A stretch of DNA of 64,000 nucleotides from Pseudothermotoga elfii DSM 9442 = NBRC 107921 (GCF_000504085.1 NC_022792.1:558001-622000); one strand, 5' to 3'; shown: positions 694 to 12,047, numbered from the stretch's first letter. The notes: generated by a model not told the origin, from the letters alone. A program made the numbers and translations.

Positions 694-1308
694 ATGATTC
701 ATGAAATAAACGAAATTGTATCTCTTGTTTCAACAGGCCCTATAGGAACAAACACATATATCTTGAAAAATTCTCCAGTGATTGTTATAGATCCAGGTTT
801 TGGGATAGGGCATCATTTAAAAGAAGAGTGTGTGGTTTTGTTAACCCACAGCCATTATGACCACATATGTGGCTTGAATGAAATAAAAGTTACGAAAGTT
901 TATGTTTCTGAGGAAGATCTTCAAGGTCTTGGTGATCCATCAGTCAATAAATCACGCTTTTTTGGAAACTCTTTCGTTTACGATGGATCTTTTGATATAT
1001 TTCAGGATACTCTGACAATAGGTAAATGGCATTTTGATGTTATAAGAACTCCCGGGCATACGAAGGGTTCCGTAGTCCTTTCAACAGATGGGATGTTTTT
1101 CACTGGTGATACAATTTTTATGGATAGTATAGGCAGAACAGATTTCCCGGAATCTGATGAAAAAAAGATGGTAGAGAGTATAAAAATGCTTTTGAATATT
1201 TTTAAAAAAGTTGATCCGGATTTATTGGTTTTGCCTGGACATATGGAATGGGGTAAAGTTAAAGAACTCCTGAAAAGAAACTATTTTCTAAGGGAGGCGC
1301 TGATTTGA
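694..1308 (+). CDS. MBL-fold metallo-hydrolase (glyoxalase II-like)
   Basis: This 204-residue protein has the full metallo-beta-lactamase metal site: THSHYDH (HxHxDH), GHTKGS, GDTIF, GRTDFP and a C-terminal PGH. The spacing and short length fit the glyoxalase II-like hydrolases, which bind two metal ions and usually hydrolyse thioesters; the true substrate is unknown. The frame is open from 652, but the strong AGGAGGT at 680-686 points to the ATG at 694. That leaves only 30 bases between this start and the divergent PLD-like gene, so its promoter must lie inside that gene. It overlaps the lipoprotein gene by 4 bases and probably heads an operon with it and the glycerophosphodiesterase. Confidence 0.88.
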   Translation: MIHEINEIVSLVSTGPIGTNTYILKNSPVIVIDPGFGIGHHLKEECVVLLTHSHYDHICGLNEIKVTKVYVSEEDLQGLGDPSVNKSRFFGNSFVYDGSFDIFQDTLTIGKWHFDVIRTPGHTKGSVVLSTDGMFFTGDTIFMDSIGRTDFPESDEKKMVESIKMLLNIFKKVDPDLLVLPGHMEWGKVKELLKRNYFLREALI

Positions 1309-1784
1309 AAAAGACTTTGATTGTGCTGCTTGTTTTGTTCTTTTTCTCAAGCTGTATGATCAGGCCAATTTACGTTCCACCAAGAGTTTATTCGATAAGT
1401 TCTGCTGTGAAATCTTTGCAAGATTCGTATTTGCTTGTTTTTGTTGAGGAAGTGGATGGATATGGCCCCGTTGAGGCAAAGGGCGTGGTTGCAAGCTATG
1501 TTCACGATGGAAAGAATTACCTTTTCTACGGATTCAAATTTTATGACGACTCACCAAAAGTGTACTGGAAGAAAATCGTTAAGGAAATTGGAATATGGAG
1601 TTCACGTACCTACTTTGATCTGTTAAACAGTGGGTTATACAGCTCAAAGAAAGACGGAAAGTATATAGTAGTCTGGTGGAAAGATGTGTGGATGTTTATC
1701 GTGGAGTCATCCTCAAATGCGGAAGATTTTGCAAATTATGCCATGAACTGGTTCGCAAAATTAGGAGGTAGCGAGGGATGGTAA
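1305..1784 (+). CDS. predicted lipoprotein, unknown function
   Basis: A 159-residue protein starting at TTG 1305, overlapping the previous stop by 4 bases, with GGGAGG 7 bases upstream. The N-terminus is a clear lipoprotein signal: MKK, a run of Leu/Val/Phe, then the lipobox FSSC with Cys17 as the likely lipidated residue. The mature part is rich in Tyr and Trp (VYWKKIV, YIVVWWKDVWMFIV) and should fold as a small beta-rich extracytoplasmic domain. I do not recognise the family. Its end overlaps the start of the glycerophosphodiesterase by 7 bases, so the two are very likely co-translated. Confidence 0.75.
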   Translation: MKKTLIVLLVLFFFSSCMIRPIYVPPRVYSISSAVKSLQDSYLLVFVEEVDGYGPVEAKGVVASYVHDGKNYLFYGFKFYDDSPKVYWKKIVKEIGIWSSRTYFDLLNSGLYSSKKDGKYIVVWWKDVWMFIVESSSNAEDFANYAMNWFAKLGGSEGW

Positions 1785-4504: not shown

Positions 4505-5820
4505 TGAGGAAGCTTTTCGGAACCGATGGAATCAGGGGAGTGTATCAGGTTGATTTAACAGAAAGCATGGCTTACAAACTTGGATTTATTCTTGGCAAGA
4601 AATACCGTGGCGGTAAATTTCTCATTGTGAGGGACACACGCGAATCGGGAATGGCAATAGAAGAAGCAATTTGTGAAGGACTTTTGAAAAACGATGTGGT
4701 GGTTTTGCGTGGCGGGATACTTCCAACACCAGCGGCTGCTCTGGTGACAAGAGTTGAAGGCTGTTTTGGTGTGGTAATTTCAGCATCACACAATCCTTAC
4801 TTTTACAATGGTATAAAGCTCTTAAAGAGTGGTTACAAGCTTTCAGATGAAGAAGAAATTGAAATAGAACGAGATTTTGAAAATGAAAAAGAACTGAATA
4901 AAACCAGATGTGGAAAAGTAATGAACTTTGCCGAAGCTCTGGATATATATGTGAACGCAATTTACGATATGTTTAAAGACATCGATTTTTCCGGTTTAAA
5001 GGTGGCAGTTGATGCTGCAAATGGTGCAGCTTACAGAACAACGCCAATTGTTTTGAACAAACTTGGAGTAAAAGTTTCGTGTTTTGCAGATCAGCCGGAC
5101 GGAAGAAATATAAATCAGGGTTGTGGCTCTCTTTACCCTTCTTTTCTTAAAGAGAATATCAATGATTTTGATCTCGGTATTCTTCATGATGGGGATGCTG
5201 ATAGGTGCATTTTTTTGACCAGAAATGGTAAAGAAATACACGGCGACAAAACGATGGGTGTTCTGGCTGATTGGATGAAGCAAGAATCGAGGCTCAAAAA
5301 TGACATAGTTGTCGCAACTGTAATGAGTAACCTTGGCTTAGAAATTTTTCTGAGCCAGCGTGGTATAAAATTGATTCGAACAAAGGTTGGAGACAGATAT
5401 GTTTTGGAACAGATGATATCACTTGAAGCCAATTTGGGTGGTGAAAGATCAGGGCACATCATTTTTCTGGATCGCTCAACGACAGGTGATGGATTGATAA
5501 CAGCCATAGAGTTTTTAAGAGTGATGGTTTTATCCGGGAAGGATCCGTGTTATCTGGAATCGATGGTTATTGATTATCCACAGCATATGATTAATGTTGA
5601 TGTTACAGATAAATCTGTTGCAGAGCACCCAAAATTAAAAGAAAAGATAGATCAATTTCAAAATGATGGCTATAGAATTATTGTGAGACCTTCTGGAACA
5701 GAACGGTTAATCAGAGTTATGGTAGAGGGAAAAGATGAATCGTCTGTAAAAAGTGTTGCTGAAGAGCTGGCAGAGTTTGTTAAAACAATGAGTTTCCTTG
5801 GAGAAGGTGAAAGTGTGTGA
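4504..5820 (+). CDS. glmM: phosphoglucosamine mutase
   Basis: GlmM (438 residues) converts glucosamine 6-phosphate to glucosamine 1-phosphate on the way to UDP-GlcNAc. All four alpha-D-phosphohexomutase signatures are present: the N-terminal GTDGIRG, the phosphoserine loop ISASHNP near residue 98, the Mg-binding DGDADR near residue 230 with HGDK after it, the sugar-binding GGERSGH near 317, and the phosphate-binding RPSGTERLIRVM near 396. GTDGIRG rather than a general mutase form supports GlmM. It begins on the last base of the TPR gene stop with GGAGGTGG upstream, and overlaps the next gene by 4 bases. Confidence 0.93.
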   Translation: MRKLFGTDGIRGVYQVDLTESMAYKLGFILGKKYRGGKFLIVRDTRESGMAIEEAICEGLLKNDVVVLRGGILPTPAAALVTRVEGCFGVVISASHNPYFYNGIKLLKSGYKLSDEEEIEIERDFENEKELNKTRCGKVMNFAEALDIYVNAIYDMFKDIDFSGLKVAVDAANGAAYRTTPIVLNKLGVKVSCFADQPDGRNINQGCGSLYPSFLKENINDFDLGILHDGDADRCIFLTRNGKEIHGDKTMGVLADWMKQESRLKNDIVVATVMSNLGLEIFLSQRGIKLIRTKVGDRYVLEQMISLEANLGGERSGHIIFLDRSTTGDGLITAIEFLRVMVLSGKDPCYLESMVIDYPQHMINVDVTDKSVAEHPKLKEKIDQFQNDGYRIIVRPSGTERLIRVMVEGKDESSVKSVAEELAEFVKTMSFLGEGESV

Positions 5821-8800
5821 AAATAGGTTTGTGTTTGGGTTCAAGCAGCATTTCACTTTATTGTGATGAGATGCTGCCGATATGGGTCCAGCACAACGGA
5901 GATCCCTTTTCAGTACTTTCGAATTTGCTCAGAGATTTTCCAGATTCTATTCAGATTGCTTTTACTGGTCGAAAACTTAGAAGAAAGTTCAAGGTTCCTT
6001 CTTTGCCAGAGTCGGAAGCCTGCGAGCTTGCATATTCCAGTCTAAAACGAAAATATGGTGAATATCAGGCCATAGTAACTGCTGGTGGCGAAAATTTTGT
6101 CCTGTACAAACTTGGTAGCGATGGAAAAATAGCGGGTATTTATACCGGGAGCAAATGTGCTTCTGGAACAGGGGAGTTTTTCTTACAGCAAATAAAGAGA
6201 ATGGGAATAGACCTTGGGAGTATAAATTCATTCACGTATGATGGTTTATACAAACTCTCATCGAGGTGCACTGTTTTCTGCAAAAGTGATTGTACTCATG
6301 CTTTGAATAAAGGTATACCAAAAGAAATGATACTGAATGGACTTGGCAAGGTTATGGCCGATAAGATTCTTCAACTCGCCAGAGCGGCGAAAGTTGATAA
6401 AGTTTTAATTGTTGGTGGAACCACAAAAAATCCACTTATGTTAAGGCATCTTGAAAACCAAATTGAATTCACTGTACCGGAGGAAGCCACCTACTTTGAA
6501 GCGTATGGCGCATATATATGGGTATCTATGGAAAATCCACCCAGAATTGGTAAAAGCCGGTTATTTGATTTTAAACGTTCTTCAGAATTTCCTCGTCATC
6601 CACCTCTTTCTCAATTTGTTGAGCTGGTAGAATTCAAGTCGATGGACATGGGGATTCCACAAATTGATGACGAATGCGTTCTAGGAGTTGATGTGGGTTC
6701 AACAACCACGAAAGCAGTTGTTGTAAGGATCAGTGATAAAAAAATTCTTGCCAGTAGTTACCTCAGAACACTTGGTGACCCGGTAAATGCTTCAAAAAAC
6801 TGTTACAGGGAGATATTATCACAGCATCTACCTGTAAAAATAGTTGCAGTTGGCGTAACCGGCTCAGGAAGAAAAGTTGTGGGATTGCACGTGCGAACAG
6901 AAGCGGTTTACAACGAAATCATGGCTCATGCCAAAGCCGCGGCATATTTTGACCCAGAAGTTGATACTATTTTCGAAATAGGGGGTCAGGATGCAAAATA
7001 TACATATTTAAATGAAGGCGTTCCTTATGATTATGCAATGAACGAAGCTTGTTCTGCGGGAACAGGTTCTTTTCTGGAAGAAGCCGCGCGGGAAGCTCTG
7101 GGAATAAATTACACAGATATAGCCGACAGAGCTTTGAGAGGGAAAAACCCTCCCAATTTCAGCGATCAGTGTGCAGCATTTATTAACAGTGATATCAAGA
7201 CAGCCATTCAGGATGGTATTTCTTCTGAGGATATATGTGCTGGCTTAGTCTATTCAATATGTATGAACTATATGAATAGGGTAAAAGGAAACAGACCTGT
7301 TGGCAACAAACTTTTTGCGCAGGGAGGAACATGCTACAACAAAGCTGTGCCCATAGCTTTTGCGGCACTCACCGGTAAAAGAGTTGTTGTACCTCCTTAT
7401 CCGGGGTTGATGGGAGCTTACGGCGTGGCTCTGATAACAATTGAAAATTTACAAAAAGGTATCCTCAAAAAAAATCTGTATGATCTCAAAGAACTCGCAG
7501 ATCGCCAAGTGAAGTATTTGAAACCGTTTGTTTGTAAAGGCGGCAAAAGTGGATGTGATAGAAAATGCAATATCAGTGTGATAGAAATTGATGGTAAGCG
7601 GGTACCTTTTGGTGGCTCGTGCAATTTATATGAAAATATCAGGGAAAATAGAGTAACCGATGATACACTTGATTTTGTCAAAAAAAGAGAAAACCTTCTT
7701 TATTCGATTCCTCGTGTTGAAAATGCGCAAAAAAGAATAGGATTGAGCCGTTCATTTGCTATGAATAGCTTGTTTCCATTCTTTTCGGCTTTTTTTGCTC
7801 ACATGGGATTTGAGATTGTTTTACCTGATGAACCTGATGAACATGCCAAAGATATCATGGGAGCAGAGTTTTGTTTTCCTGTCGAACAATCCCATGGCTT
7901 TTTGATTTCATTGCTCAGAAAAAAACCTGATTATATTTTTATTCCAAAAATTAGAGCCATAAAAATTGACCATTCGAGCAGTAAAGGTGTCTTTTGTCCA
8001 TTTGTCCAAAGTGAATATGATTGGCTTAAGGCAGACATAAGTGAATTGGAGAATGTGAACATTTTAAGCTGCAGGATAGATTTCACAGAGAAACCTGACA
8101 GTGTTATCAAATCTTTGTATAAAATGCTTGAAAAAGCTGGTTTTAAATTGCGTGATGTTGAGAGAGCATATTCAGCAGGTATGCAAGCCCAAAAAAATTT
8201 TGGAGAGAAATTGAAGGAATTTGGTGTTGAATTTCTCAAAAAAGTCAGAGAGTTTGGAACGGGAATAGTAATTTTTGGGAGATCTTATAATGCCTTTCTG
8301 AGTTATGCCAATCTCGGAATTCCAAAAAAGATAGCAAGTTATGGTTATCCTGTTTCGAGTTTTGATATGTTGCCATTTGAAGATAAGAGTGGTTATGAAA
8401 ACATGTACTGGGCATGGGGAGAAATGATATTAAAAGCAGCAAGATATGTCAAAAATATGCCAGATCTTTACCCTGTTTATATAACCAATTTTAGCTGCGG
8501 GCCAGATTCTTTTGTAATATCCTATTTTAAAGAAATAATGAAAGGCAAGCCGGCTTTAATTCTTGAGCTTGACAGCCATACAGCTGATGCAGGCATCGAA
8601 ACACGTCTGGAGGCTTTTTTTGATGTGATAAAACATAGAAAAACGAAAGTTGAGAAACCTGCAATTAACAGCTTCATGGAGGTGAAGGTGGATAAAGCAG
8701 GTGTTTTTATAAAAAAAGATGACATGGTAATTCCATGGACAGATAGAAGGGTAAGACTTGTATTTCCAACAATGGGAGCGTTTGGCGCATCCTGTTTAGT

Positions 8801-9935
8801 GGCATCCTTTGAACACTTTGGTGTGCGTACACATGTTTGTCCAGAAATGGGAGAAATTGAATATAAGCTTGGCCGGGGGAATTCTCTTTCGAAAGAATGC
8901 CTGCCTCTGCACCTCACACTTGGTAGTTTGATAAGATATATATCTATCCGTCCAGAAAATGAGATAACTCTGTATTTTATGCCACAGACATCTGGGCCGT
9001 GTAGATTCGGGCAATACAACGTTTACATGAAATTATGGCTCAGGCAAAACAAAATCTCAGATGTTGCATTACTATCTCTGAACTCTGAAAATGCATACGG
9101 AGGTCTTGGGATAAACTTCACTATCAGGGCGTGGATTTCTATACTTATATCTGATCTGTACTCAAATATTGAAAAAACTATCTTAGCACTTCATCCCGAT
9201 AGAGAATTTGCATCAAAACTCGTACAAACTCACAAGAGTGAAATTGTTAAATCGTTAAGAAGTCAAGATATATCAGGAATATTTAAAACATTAAAAAATA
9301 TATCTACTGATCTGATCGAAATGAATCTATCAGAAAAATACAAAAATGCGCCAAAGGTTCTGTTAACCGGGGAAATATATGTCCGGTGGGATGAATTCAG
9401 CAGAAAAAAACTGGAAGATTTGTTTGCGTCATATGGCGTGGTTATGCAAGTATCCCCAATACATGAATGGATATATTATACTGATTATATATTTATGAAA
9501 AAATTGACAAGTAAAGATGCTCCTTTCTGGCAAAGAATAAAAAAGGCTTTAGAAATAGCTGTTAAGAGATACTTTGAAAAAAGAGTAAAACATATTTTCG
9601 AAGCTGCGGGTTTGTGCGATACAAGAATGTTGAATATAAATGAAATAATGGCGAATGCTTCTTTGCATCTTGATCCTGCTCTGACCGGAGAAGCGATCCT
9701 CACAATTGGCTCAGCACTCACAGAGATTGGAAAACATTACGAAGGAGTCGTTGCTATAGGACCGTTTGGCTGCATGCCAAGCAGGATTGCTGAAGCTATA
9801 ATCAAGAACGCTTTAGAAAAGAGAGAAAAAAGATATCCATTTATAGCCCTTGAAGTTGATGGCAATCCATTCACGCCTTCTGTTGAAGCCAAGATAGATG
9901 CTTTTATTTCGCAGGTCAAATCTTTGAGAAGATGA
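5817..9935 (+). CDS. giant BadF/HgdC-type activase fused to HgdB-like domain
   Basis: This 1372-residue protein starts at GTG 5817 (4-base overlap with glmM). The N-terminal quarter is an ASKHA ATPase half resembling BadF/BcrA/HgdC activators (CASGTGEFF near residue 115; the C-x3-C pair TVFCKSDC near 156). A second, complete activator domain spans about 285-545, with DVGSTTTKA, VTGSGRK, EIGGQDAKY and CSAGTGSF. Residues 640-900 match the DUF2229-type region, and the rest resembles HgdB/double-cubane-type subunits with scattered conserved cysteines (GAEFC, FSCGP, HVCPEMG, KECLP, SGPCRFG, FGCMPS). Such activators use ATP and a [4Fe-4S] cluster to push a low-potential electron into a partner iron-sulfur protein. 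Here driver and acceptor-like parts share one chain. The physiological substrate is unknown and the cell-wall/replication neighbours do not reveal it. Confidence 0.85.
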   Translation: MKIGLCLGSSSISLYCDEMLPIWVQHNGDPFSVLSNLLRDFPDSIQIAFTGRKLRRKFKVPSLPESEACELAYSSLKRKYGEYQAIVTAGGENFVLYKLGSDGKIAGIYTGSKCASGTGEFFLQQIKRMGIDLGSINSFTYDGLYKLSSRCTVFCKSDCTHALNKGIPKEMILNGLGKVMADKILQLARAAKVDKVLIVGGTTKNPLMLRHLENQIEFTVPEEATYFEAYGAYIWVSMENPPRIGKSRLFDFKRSSEFPRHPPLSQFVELVEFKSMDMGIPQIDDECVLGVDVGSTTTKAVVVRISDKKILASSYLRTLGDPVNASKNCYREILSQHLPVKIVAVGVTGSGRKVVGLHVRTEAVYNEIMAHAKAAAYFDPEVDTIFEIGGQDAKYTYLNEGVPYDYAMNEACSAGTGSFLEEAAREALGINYTDIADRALRGKNPPNFSDQCAAFINSDIKTAIQDGISSEDICAGLVYSICMNYMNRVKGNRPVGNKLFAQGGTCYNKAVPIAFAALTGKRVVVPPYPGLMGAYGVALITIENLQKGILKKNLYDLKELADRQVKYLKPFVCKGGKSGCDRKCNISVIEIDGKRVPFGGSCNLYENIRENRVTDDTLDFVKKRENLLYSIPRVENAQKRIGLSRSFAMNSLFPFFSAFFAHMGFEIVLPDEPDEHAKDIMGAEFCFPVEQSHGFLISLLRKKPDYIFIPKIRAIKIDHSSSKGVFCPFVQSEYDWLKADISELENVNILSCRIDFTEKPDSVIKSLYKMLEKAGFKLRDVERAYSAGMQAQKNFGEKLKEFGVEFLKKVREFGTGIVIFGRSYNAFLSYANLGIPKKIASYGYPVSSFDMLPFEDKSGYENMYWAWGEMILKAARYVKNMPDLYPVYITNFSCGPDSFVISYFKEIMKGKPALILELDSHTADAGIETRLEAFFDVIKHRKTKVEKPAINSFMEVKVDKAGVFIKKDDMVIPWTDRRVRLVFPTMGAFGASCLVASFEHFGVRTHVCPEMGEIEYKLGRGNSLSKECLPLHLTLGSLIRYISIRPENEITLYFMPQTSGPCRFGQYNVYMKLWLRQNKISDVALLSLNSENAYGGLGINFTIRAWISILISDLYSNIEKTILALHPDREFASKLVQTHKSEIVKSLRSQDISGIFKTLKNISTDLIEMNLSEKYKNAPKVLLTGEIYVRWDEFSRKKLEDLFASYGVVMQVSPIHEWIYYTDYIFMKKLTSKDAPFWQRIKKALEIAVKRYFEKRVKHIFEAAGLCDTRMLNINEIMANASLHLDPALTGEAILTIGSALTEIGKHYEGVVAIGPFGCMPSRIAEAIIKNALEKREKRYPFIALEVDGNPFTPSVEAKIDAFISQVKSLRR

Positions 9936-9957: not shown

Positions 9958-10899
9958 TTGGCAGTTATTTTTTTGAGTGGAGATGCTCGAGTTCTAAAAG
10001 ATGAATATGTGGAAGCACTTTGCAGGAAAAAGATGCTGAAGAAAATTAAAATTTCTCTTGAAGAATCTAAAAGAATACCAGAGCTTGTTTCTCAAATGGG
10101 ATTGTTCTCTAAGGATTTTCTAATAGATGTGGTGGATTTTGACGAATGGAAGAAGGTTGATCAAAAAGAATTGCTTCAACAACTTTCATCGAGCAATTTC
10201 TTAGCTGTGCTTAGAACATTTTCTACTTCCAGAAAAACAGATGTGATTGATTTCTCTCTTCCCAAACCTTGGGAAAAGGAAAAATGGATTGAGTATATAA
10301 GCAAAAGGTTCGAAAAGAGCTCTTTGGAATATAATTATGAAGGAGTAGAGAAATTCTTTGATTTTGTCGGAGCTGATGATCTTCTCATAGAAAGAGAAAC
10401 GGAAAAACTTGCATGTATTGGTGAAAAGGTTACTCCAGATATAGTGTCTCTGGCAGTATGCAATTATTCAAAAATTCAGATGGAAGAGTTTTGTTTTGCA
10501 GTTTCTACATTAAACAGGCATGCTCATTACTTGCTTCATGATATGTCTTTTTATACCGAAATCGTTGCTTTAGTAAATGTCCTTAGCAAACACTTTGTCG
10601 ATTTGTACAGGATACTTTCTGCTGTTGAAAAACGTGATAGTTATTCTTGGATGTATATAAAGAATATATCTCAAAAACTGAATATACCCGTTGTAAAATC
10701 GGCTAAATTTCTCGGTTTTTCCTTTAAAAATCAGCCATCTTCCATAAACCACGTTAAGATTTATAGTTTTGAAAAATTGAGGATTATATTAAGGCAACTT
10801 CAATACCTGGATCGTGAAGTTAAATCCTCAGAATACCGCCTGATTGCTATCCATGTTTTCATAGATTTCGTATTTCGTCTCATGGAGGGCGAAACTTGA
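9958..10899 (+). CDS. holA: DNA polymerase III delta subunit
   Basis: A 313-residue protein with the overall pattern of HolA, the clamp-loader subunit that opens the sliding clamp: an N-terminal domain (FLSGDARVLKDEYVEAL, then PELVSQMGLFSKDFLIDV), the middle helical segment containing GADDLLIERETEKLA near residue 140, and a C-terminal helical collar domain ending RLIAIHVFIDFVFRL. The family diverges strongly, so the call rests on the arrangement and the middle motif. It starts at TTG 9958 behind GAGAGGTGA, 22 bases after the activase gene, and overlaps the radical SAM gene by 4 bases. Confidence 0.82.
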   Translation: MAVIFLSGDARVLKDEYVEALCRKKMLKKIKISLEESKRIPELVSQMGLFSKDFLIDVVDFDEWKKVDQKELLQQLSSSNFLAVLRTFSTSRKTDVIDFSLPKPWEKEKWIEYISKRFEKSSLEYNYEGVEKFFDFVGADDLLIERETEKLACIGEKVTPDIVSLAVCNYSKIQMEEFCFAVSTLNRHAHYLLHDMSFYTEIVALVNVLSKHFVDLYRILSAVEKRDSYSWMYIKNISQKLNIPVVKSAKFLGFSFKNQPSSINHVKIYSFEKLRIILRQLQYLDREVKSSEYRLIAIHVFIDFVFRLMEGET

Positions 10900-12047
10900 A
10901 GATAATTTTTAGATTTCACAAACACAACAGATACAGCTTGATACCCCTTATCGCAGCGATTCACGACAAATTTCCATCAATTGAGATGGCATTTGTTGGC
11001 AGCCTAAATGAAATAATGAACATTTCTCCACCTGCTGTTGTTGCTTATTCGTTCATGAGTTTTGACGTTGATTGGGTATCTCAAGAGGTAAATATTTTGA
11101 AGAAAAAGGGATACGCTTTGATAGCGGGCGGCCCTCATGCAACTGCAAAACCAGAAGATGTCATCAGAATGGGGTTCGATCATGTCTTTAAGGGTGATGG
11201 AGAGGAAAATATACTGCTCTTTCTCAAAGGCGAAAGGAGCACTGTTTTTGATGGACTTGTTAAAAGGATTAATATAGATGAATATCCTCCATTTTGTAGC
11301 GATTTGGATCTGTTTATGCCTATTGAGATAACCAGAGGTTGCCCATTTGGATGCGCTTATTGTGAGGTTTCACTAATAGGTGGCAAAAAACCAAGGCATA
11401 GAAGTGTTGAGTCGATTGTTCACCATTGCAAAAGTGGTATAAATAAATCAAGATACATTGCAAGATTCATTACACCAAATGCGTTTGGATATGGTTCAGA
11501 TGGGATGAAAGTTAACGTTGAGGCGATAGACAACTTGCTGTATAATCTGAAAAAAGTAGGAATGAAAGAGATTTATTTCGGCAGTTTTCCATCAGATGTT
11601 CGACCCGAGTTTGTCACTGATGAAGTGTTGAAAACAATAAAGAAATATGTCAACAACAGATATATAATCTTAGGTGCACAGAGTGGTAGCGACAGAGTTT
11701 TAAGATTGATAAAAAGATTCCACACAGTTGAGCATGTCGTCAGATCAGCCGAGATTGTTTTAAATAATGGGTTTGTTCCACGCGTTGATATTATTTTTGG
11801 ATTTCCATTTGAAAACGAGGATGACCTGGCAAAAACATTTGATCTCATAAAAAAATTAGTTAAGATGGGTTGCAAAATTCATGCCCACACATTTATGCCC
11901 TTACCAGGGACAGAGTTAGAGTCATCTGGCCATGCTGTTCTCCCAGAGTGGGTGAGAAGGGAATTGAGCAGGTTTGCACAGGAAGGAAATCTCGATGGTT
12001 ACTGGGAAAAACAGCTGTTTTTATCCAAGTATTTATCCGAGCTTTAA
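10896..12047 (+). CDS. B12-binding-domain radical SAM protein
   Basis: A 383-residue protein with two parts. Residues 1-130 form a B12-binding-like Rossmann domain (ISPPAVVAYSFMSFDVDWVS, LIAGGPHATAKPED, VFKGDGEENI). Residues 140-360 form a radical SAM core with the cluster-binding CPFGCAYC (C-x3-C-x2-C) preceded by IEITRG, and later SAM-contact elements GAQSGSDRVLRLIKR and VDIIFGFPFENEDD. It resembles the archaeal/bacterial TIGR04013 (MJ1487-like) group, whose reaction is unknown. The cobalamin domain may not bind cobalamin, since no DxHxxG motif is visible. It starts at TTG 10896, overlapping holA by 4 bases, and appears to be the last gene of the murB operon. Confidence 0.85.
   Translation: MKIIFRFHKHNRYSLIPLIAAIHDKFPSIEMAFVGSLNEIMNISPPAVVAYSFMSFDVDWVSQEVNILKKKGYALIAGGPHATAKPEDVIRMGFDHVFKGDGEENILLFLKGERSTVFDGLVKRINIDEYPPFCSDLDLFMPIEITRGCPFGCAYCEVSLIGGKKPRHRSVESIVHHCKSGINKSRYIARFITPNAFGYGSDGMKVNVEAIDNLLYNLKKVGMKEIYFGSFPSDVRPEFVTDEVLKTIKKYVNNRYIILGAQSGSDRVLRLIKRFHTVEHVVRSAEIVLNNGFVPRVDIIFGFPFENEDDLAKTFDLIKKLVKMGCKIHAHTFMPLPGTELESSGHAVLPEWVRRELSRFAQEGNLDGYWEKQLFLSKYLSEL

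Follow-up and report, generated by a model that had tools for sequence, protein, structure and literature searches.

Positions 5817–9935 of the window (the whole stretch analysed, 64,000 nucleotides from the complete 2.17-Mb genome of Pseudothermotoga elfii DSM 9442 = NBRC 107921) raise the question of what a single protein that joins the activator and acceptor sides of an electron-injecting system might reduce, and why its gene should lie between glmM and holA. The initial annotation had described a 1372-residue activase of this kind, had called its substrate unknown, and had found its setting surprising. The ORF, its translation and its neighbours confirmed both the protein and its place. 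The reading frame runs from 5817 to 9935 on the + strand, begins with GTG, and overlaps the glmM stop codon by 4 nt (GTGA), so that its translation is probably coupled to that of glmM; scanning for promoters and terminators returned the same counts as in shuffled sequence and was uninformative. Pfam placed PF01869 twice on the 1372-aa protein (the second copy at residues 289–540) and DUF2229 at 640–852, while NCBIfam reported TIGR00241 ('acyl-CoA dehydratase activase') over two stretches. These matches, together with the dehydratase-type folds described below, bear out the combination of activator and acceptor modules in one chain. The features discussed in this work are as follows:

5800..5809, + strand: likely ribosome-binding site of the GGAG type within the 3' end of glmM, from direct reading of the sequence.
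5817..9935, + strand: very probable ger orthologue encoding a single-chain, 1372-aa glycerol ester reductase (modified PlsA), from the ORF and its translation, Pfam, NCBIfam, and 56–57% identity over 1365 aa to the Thermotoga protein L019.
5817..6536, + strand: ASKHA1, residues 1–240, a whole ASKHA fold with Cys6 in place of the phosphate-site Asp (fold match, hhalign, column counts), carrying cysteines 114 and 151 (cluster) and the clade-specific 155 and 159 (column counts).
6672..7463, + strand: ASKHA2, residues 286–549, an intact activator ATPase with cluster cysteines 412 and 452 (fold match, motif conservation).
7533..7622, + strand: linker with C573-x6-C580-x3-C584-x17-C602, a putative metal site (Fe-S or zinc), all four cysteines being kept in 95/96 sequences.
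7692..8639, + strand: HgdB-like repeat 1, residues 626–941, containing DUF2229 and cysteines 686, 727 and 894 (fold search, cysteine conservation).
8739..9932, + strand: HgdB-like repeat 2, residues 975–1372, with cysteines 1028, 1062 and 1319 (hhalign to repeat 1, split homologue).

Two AlphaFold models, covering residues 1–640 and 541–1372, were built from input alignments of 71–72 homologues. In the first of these (mean pLDDT 86.9, pTM 0.69), a fold search matched ASKHA2 to the activator of 2-hydroxyisocaproyl-CoA dehydratase (4eht) with a Z of 31.3 and 2.3 Å over 256 residues, and the key positions of its GVDVGSTTTK and EIGGQDAK motifs were kept in 95–96 of 96 sequences, in agreement with the complete second ASKHA domain annotated initially. 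The N-terminal part, taken at that time for one ASKHA half, is in fact a whole fold with a degraded nucleotide site: residues 1–240 gave a Z of about 20 to the type II pantothenate kinases, which form a further family of the ASKHA type, and profile comparison found the two domains to be homologous (hhalign probability 99.4). The degradation consists of Cys6 replacing the phosphate-site Asp and GGEN/GGET replacing GGQD, and the Asp/Gly phosphate-binding motifs are therefore intact in ASKHA2 and not in both activator halves.

The cysteine-bearing HgdB-like region noted initially was resolved into two tandem repeats, at about 626–941 and 975–1372. In the second model (pLDDT 89.6, pTM 0.86), repeat 1 matched component D of 2-hydroxyacyl-CoA dehydratase (HAD; 3o3m_D) with a Z of 14.0 and 3.8 Å over 267 residues, followed by the benzoyl-CoA reductase (BCR) BzdNO (8s02_B, Z 13.2) and the double-cubane-cluster protein DCCP (6eno, Z 12.3), with unrelated rows from 6.8 down; it thus has the HgdB-like fold of HAD/BCR component D as well as three cysteines in keeping with [4Fe-4S] ligation. 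Repeat 2, for which the Foldseek and VIA rows showed no entry of its own, was placed by profile, through a weak but specific hhalign match to repeat 1 (probability 44, E 2.4e-4) that pairs C686 with C1028, C727 with C1062, and C894 with C1319; its split homologue (L054:6606-7763) matches HGD-D (E 1.4e-7), and it probably corresponds to clostridial PlsR. The link of the C-terminal region to HAD/BCR comes from the fold search and the HGD-D match rather than from a PDB sequence search, in which query A2 gave no significant match beyond activators and the split subunits of family f8 gave none.

Conservation in 95 or 96 of 96 sequences was seen for each of 14 cysteines along the whole chain: C114, C151, C412, C452, C573, C580, C584, C602, C686, C727, C894, C1028, C1062 and C1319. 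They fall into a 2+2 arrangement in the activator domains, four in the linker, and 3+3 in the repeats, a layout common to some 95 members from many phyla, and the cluster cysteines sought in the C-terminal region are accordingly present, three invariant ones per repeat. The 2+2 arrangement is the bridging [4Fe-4S] pattern of HAD activators, each ASKHA fold contributing two cluster cysteines (C114/C151 and C412/C452, 95/96 sequences) as in HAD component A.

Long proteins of this type, said at the outset to exist elsewhere, proved to be widespread. Full-length, single-ORF homologues with 52–73% identity occur in several Thermotogota families, and one family of that phylum (f10) has a more remote version, about 1490 aa long and 25–30% identical; the homologue search found no fused gene in f2, a family within the order. 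Scanning genomes of every phylum turned up at least 551 relatives, and the best 80 of these, which were inspected, included full-length members with 42–48% identity in many other phyla and groups (Bacillota, Halanaerobiales, Desulfobacterota, Calditrichota, Hydrogenedentota, Marinimicrobia and one Thermoplasmatota MAG). Because full-length single-ORF homologues span both the Thermotogota families and many phyla, the architecture is, judging from these sequences, far beyond chance. Independent support for the division of the fused chain comes from another Thermotogota family (f8), in which the related parts are three adjacent genes encoding DUF2229/HGD-D (346 aa), HGD-D (385 aa) and an activator (351 aa). 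These three-gene operons were located at L054:5636-8808, L055:1855-5040 and L056:7055-10264, the L054 copy adjoining a TIGR03960 radical SAM gene and DUF2344. In genome G019, ger (L057:7140-12533) is broken into pieces of 595 and 818 aa with ORFs of 99 and 276 aa between them, an interruption in the linker region that looks like an insertion-sequence element. DUF2229 was also detected in the control genomes of Thermus composti and Deinobacterium chartae, which belong to groups generally held to be aerobic, an unexpected place for an oxygen-sensitive Fe-S enzyme.

No separate partner subunit consistently accompanies the fused gene, most genomes of the Thermotoga family (f3) that carry it having no stand-alone HGD-D gene or pair. 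The P. elfii genome does contain an HGD-D gene and, after it, an HGD-D/activator fusion gene (L138, G000:C1:1569999-1572691), at ~1.57 Mb and 1 Mb away from ger; this pair has its own activator, consistent with a fused protein that needs no separate partner. Two-gene HAD/BCR-like systems of the same type were also seen in other Pseudothermotogaceae and in family f9.

As to the substrate, the window protein is 56–57% identical over 1365 aa to a Thermotoga orthologue (L019 of genome G090), which we take to be the T. maritima MSB8 protein Ger Tmari_0479, and it is via this assignment that full-length homology extends to a validated Ger. In the tree, the window and Thermotoga proteins lie in one 93-tip clade with a support of 0.993. 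Tmari_0479 has been proposed to be a 'modified PlsA' that turns the ester bonds of lipids into the tougher ether bonds (PMC8788747), and alkylglycerol ethers are reported to form in E. coli when either the T. maritima or the Desulfatibacillum (D.) alkenivorans Ger is expressed there anaerobically (PMC11150832; PMC13274423). A second D. alkenivorans homologue, Ger2, is reported as inactive on expression (PMC11150832), hence family membership is no guarantee of activity. Thermosipho, without the gene, is without ether lipids and has only ester membrane-spanning lipids (PMC8788747); the absence of the fused gene from f2 is in line with that report, the comparison being one of gene presence alone. 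Set against the two Ger proteins (T. maritima Tmari_0479; D. alkenivorans SHJ90043), the window protein has the same full-length orthology and domain order and shares its phylum with T. maritima; the Thermotoga protein likewise has a degenerate ASKHA1 with Cys6, Cys155 and Cys159, and only the genomic neighbourhood differs. With high confidence, the product of 5817–9935 can be assigned from its sequence as the anaerobic enzyme Ger, a PlsA-like glycerol ester reductase of the BCR/HAD superfamily whose modules are all joined in a single chain. Given its orthology to Thermotoga Ger, the substrate would be an acyl ester of membrane glycerolipids, and the same ester-to-ether activity as that of the tested Ger may be expected.

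The best structural matches, being HAD/BCR components, and database names such as 'CoA enzyme activase' could suggest an activator joined to a 2-hydroxyacyl-CoA dehydratase or a benzoyl-CoA-reductase-like enzyme that acts on a CoA thioester in fermentation. The protein does resemble components A and D of 2-hydroxyacyl-CoA dehydratases (HadI, HadBC; HgdC, HgdAB) in its activator fold, in having two cysteines in each ASKHA domain, in its component-D fold and in its three cluster cysteines per subunit, but it is one chain, would act on a lipid ester rather than a CoA thioester, and has one of its two ATPase sites degraded. With class I benzoyl-CoA reductases (BzdNO/PQ, MbdONPQ) it has in common a heterodimer-like activator, a heterodimer-like reductase and, as predicted, net reduction rather than just dehydration, but it lacks a six-cysteine BzdN-like subunit, is fused, and would have another substrate. 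No acyl-CoA gene recurred beside ger across 84 loci, the separate HGD-D pair, which has an activator of its own, is the better candidate for CoA chemistry in this genome, and the closest tested orthologue works on glycerolipids (PMC11150832); action on a CoA thioester is thus very improbable. Still less credible is a small-molecule reductase of the double-cubane-cluster type, a partner option that had been raised initially. The general HgdB-like fold is common to both, and repeat 1 matches DCCP as noted above (Z 12.3), but the [8Fe-9S] subunit BzdN has six ligating cysteines (Cys36/73/100/263/293/327), whereas BzdO has three (Cys95/128/380), as does HadB (PMC11971306). Aligned with these proteins, each repeat has three conserved cysteines (95/96 sequences) rather than the six of an [8Fe-9S] site, a count that fits 2-hydroxyacyl-CoA dehydratase, disfavours a double-cubane protein, and led us to drop that reading of the C-terminal region.

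A closer contender is plasmalogen synthase (PlsA), which would halt at the vinyl ether after a two-electron reduction and dehydration and yield no saturated ether. PlsA is of the HAD family; C. perfringens encodes it in an operon of two genes, plsA-plsR, and lactic acid bacteria in one ORF (PMC12838417), where its length is similar. Superfamily and domain order are the same. PlsA and PlsA-PlsR (C. perfringens, E. faecalis, Lactococcus; the Listeria-type L146) share with the window protein the two ASKHA domains, the four-cysteine linker, the DUF2229 repeat and the second HgdB-like repeat, and all 14 cysteines are present in the Listeria and Collinsella members, plsA having been reported from both taxa. 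The occurrence of PF01869 twice in one chain with DUF2229, as expected for Ger, does not by itself discriminate between the two, because the PlsA-type proteins of Listeria and Collinsella also show PF01869 twice. The C. perfringens system, however, is split over two genes, and PlsA-type proteins are only about 24% identical to the window protein, compared with 56% for the Thermotoga protein; their ASKHA1 nucleotide motifs are intact, they have no Cys155/Cys159, and they yield a vinyl ether where Ger yields a saturated one. In Thermotoga, ethers are made but no plasmalogens (PMC8788747). Taken together, a PlsA-type activity appears unlikely, and assignment as Ger is preferred.

Ger and PlsA have been described as indistinguishable from sequence alone, with a discriminating motif not yet known (PMC13274423, 2026). 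We scored the ASKHA1 residues in an extended set of 104 sequences, comprising the 93-tip Ger clade (three tips with that end missing) and 11 others. Cys6 was present in all 90 scorable Ger-clade sequences, the window and Thermotoga proteins among them, and the Cys6-bearing clade is monophyletic, with Cys155 and Cys159 as further characteristic residues. In contrast, all 11 sequences outside the clade, Listeria and Collinsella included, had Asp6 and no Cys155 or Cys159; in most of them GG(E/Q)D was intact, the f10 type having GAKD instead. Within this sample, residue state therefore splits the family perfectly, as an association of clade and residues in which one clade member is functionally anchored and PlsA is represented through taxa reported to carry plsA. 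The combination of Cys6/Cys155/Cys159 and a dead ASKHA1 could serve as a Ger/PlsA diagnostic and may be new; that it is the hallmark parting ether-making Ger from vinyl-ether-making PlsA is a tentative proposal, which we rate somewhat below even. The choice of 'one versus two activation domains' as discriminator was abandoned. Since two PF01869 stretches were obtained for either type among the sequences tested, the state of the first ASKHA domain may discriminate better than the activation-domain count proposed in the literature. Genome G105 (Desulfobacteraceae Eth-SRB1) carries both a Ger-type gene (dead ASKHA1) and a PlsA-type gene (intact ASKHA1) about 20 kb apart (L154/L155), a natural pair for functional comparison.

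The position of ger between glmM and holA, initially thought surprising, turned out to be a feature of Pseudothermotogaceae only, the family in which synteny with glmM, holA and clpX is kept, and has no functional meaning; other Thermotogota families have different neighbours. Clustering of 84 loci from many phyla gave no useful recurrent neighbour family, putative operon partners being unrelated in kind, and genomic context was therefore dropped as a clue to the substrate. Such a lack of recurrent neighbours is in keeping with an enzyme that works without a partner gene on a substrate found in every membrane. Within the same gene string, a DUF3242 protein (window 1305–1784) is encoded upstream, with synteny kept in other Pseudothermotogaceae, and a TIGR04013 B12-binding-domain/radical SAM protein (a hypothetical equivalog; window 10896–12047) lies two genes downstream of ger in this family.

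By analogy with HAD/BCR biochemistry and the Ger studies, we propose that ASKHA1 and ASKHA2 pair within the chain as a pseudo-dimeric activator around one bridging [4Fe-4S] cluster on C114/C151/C412/C452. ATP binding and hydrolysis would take place at ASKHA2, ASKHA1 having probably lost the ability to hydrolyse; that ASKHA2 alone hydrolyses ATP is a speculative element of this scheme. Single low-potential electrons, from ferredoxin or a similar donor, would then be driven out of the bridging cluster and on to the pair of HgdB-like repeats, with one [4Fe-4S] site predicted in each (C686/C727/C894 and C1028/C1062/C1319), and the linker cysteines might, speculatively, form an electron-entry or structural metal site. 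At the repeats, the sn-1 acyl ester of a membrane phospholipid, followed less readily by that at sn-2, would undergo reduction and loss of water to leave an alkyl ether, with the net balance ester + 4 e- + 4 H+ -> ether + water. The reaction would contribute to the ether-containing lipids of Thermotogota.

The puzzle of substrate and setting is thus one that published work on Ger has already solved, the window protein being an unremarkable example of an enzyme already known. If the ASKHA1 signature does mark Ger, its activator would be asymmetric and use a single ATP; the dead half might house an additional metal or redox site, and loss of ASKHA1 function would be tied to the further reduction of vinyl ether to alkyl ether. 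The signature could then separate Ger from PlsA in genomes and offers a concrete target for mutagenesis. More broadly, bacterial ester-to-ether conversion by Ger bears on the 'lipid divide' and on brGDGT palaeothermometry.
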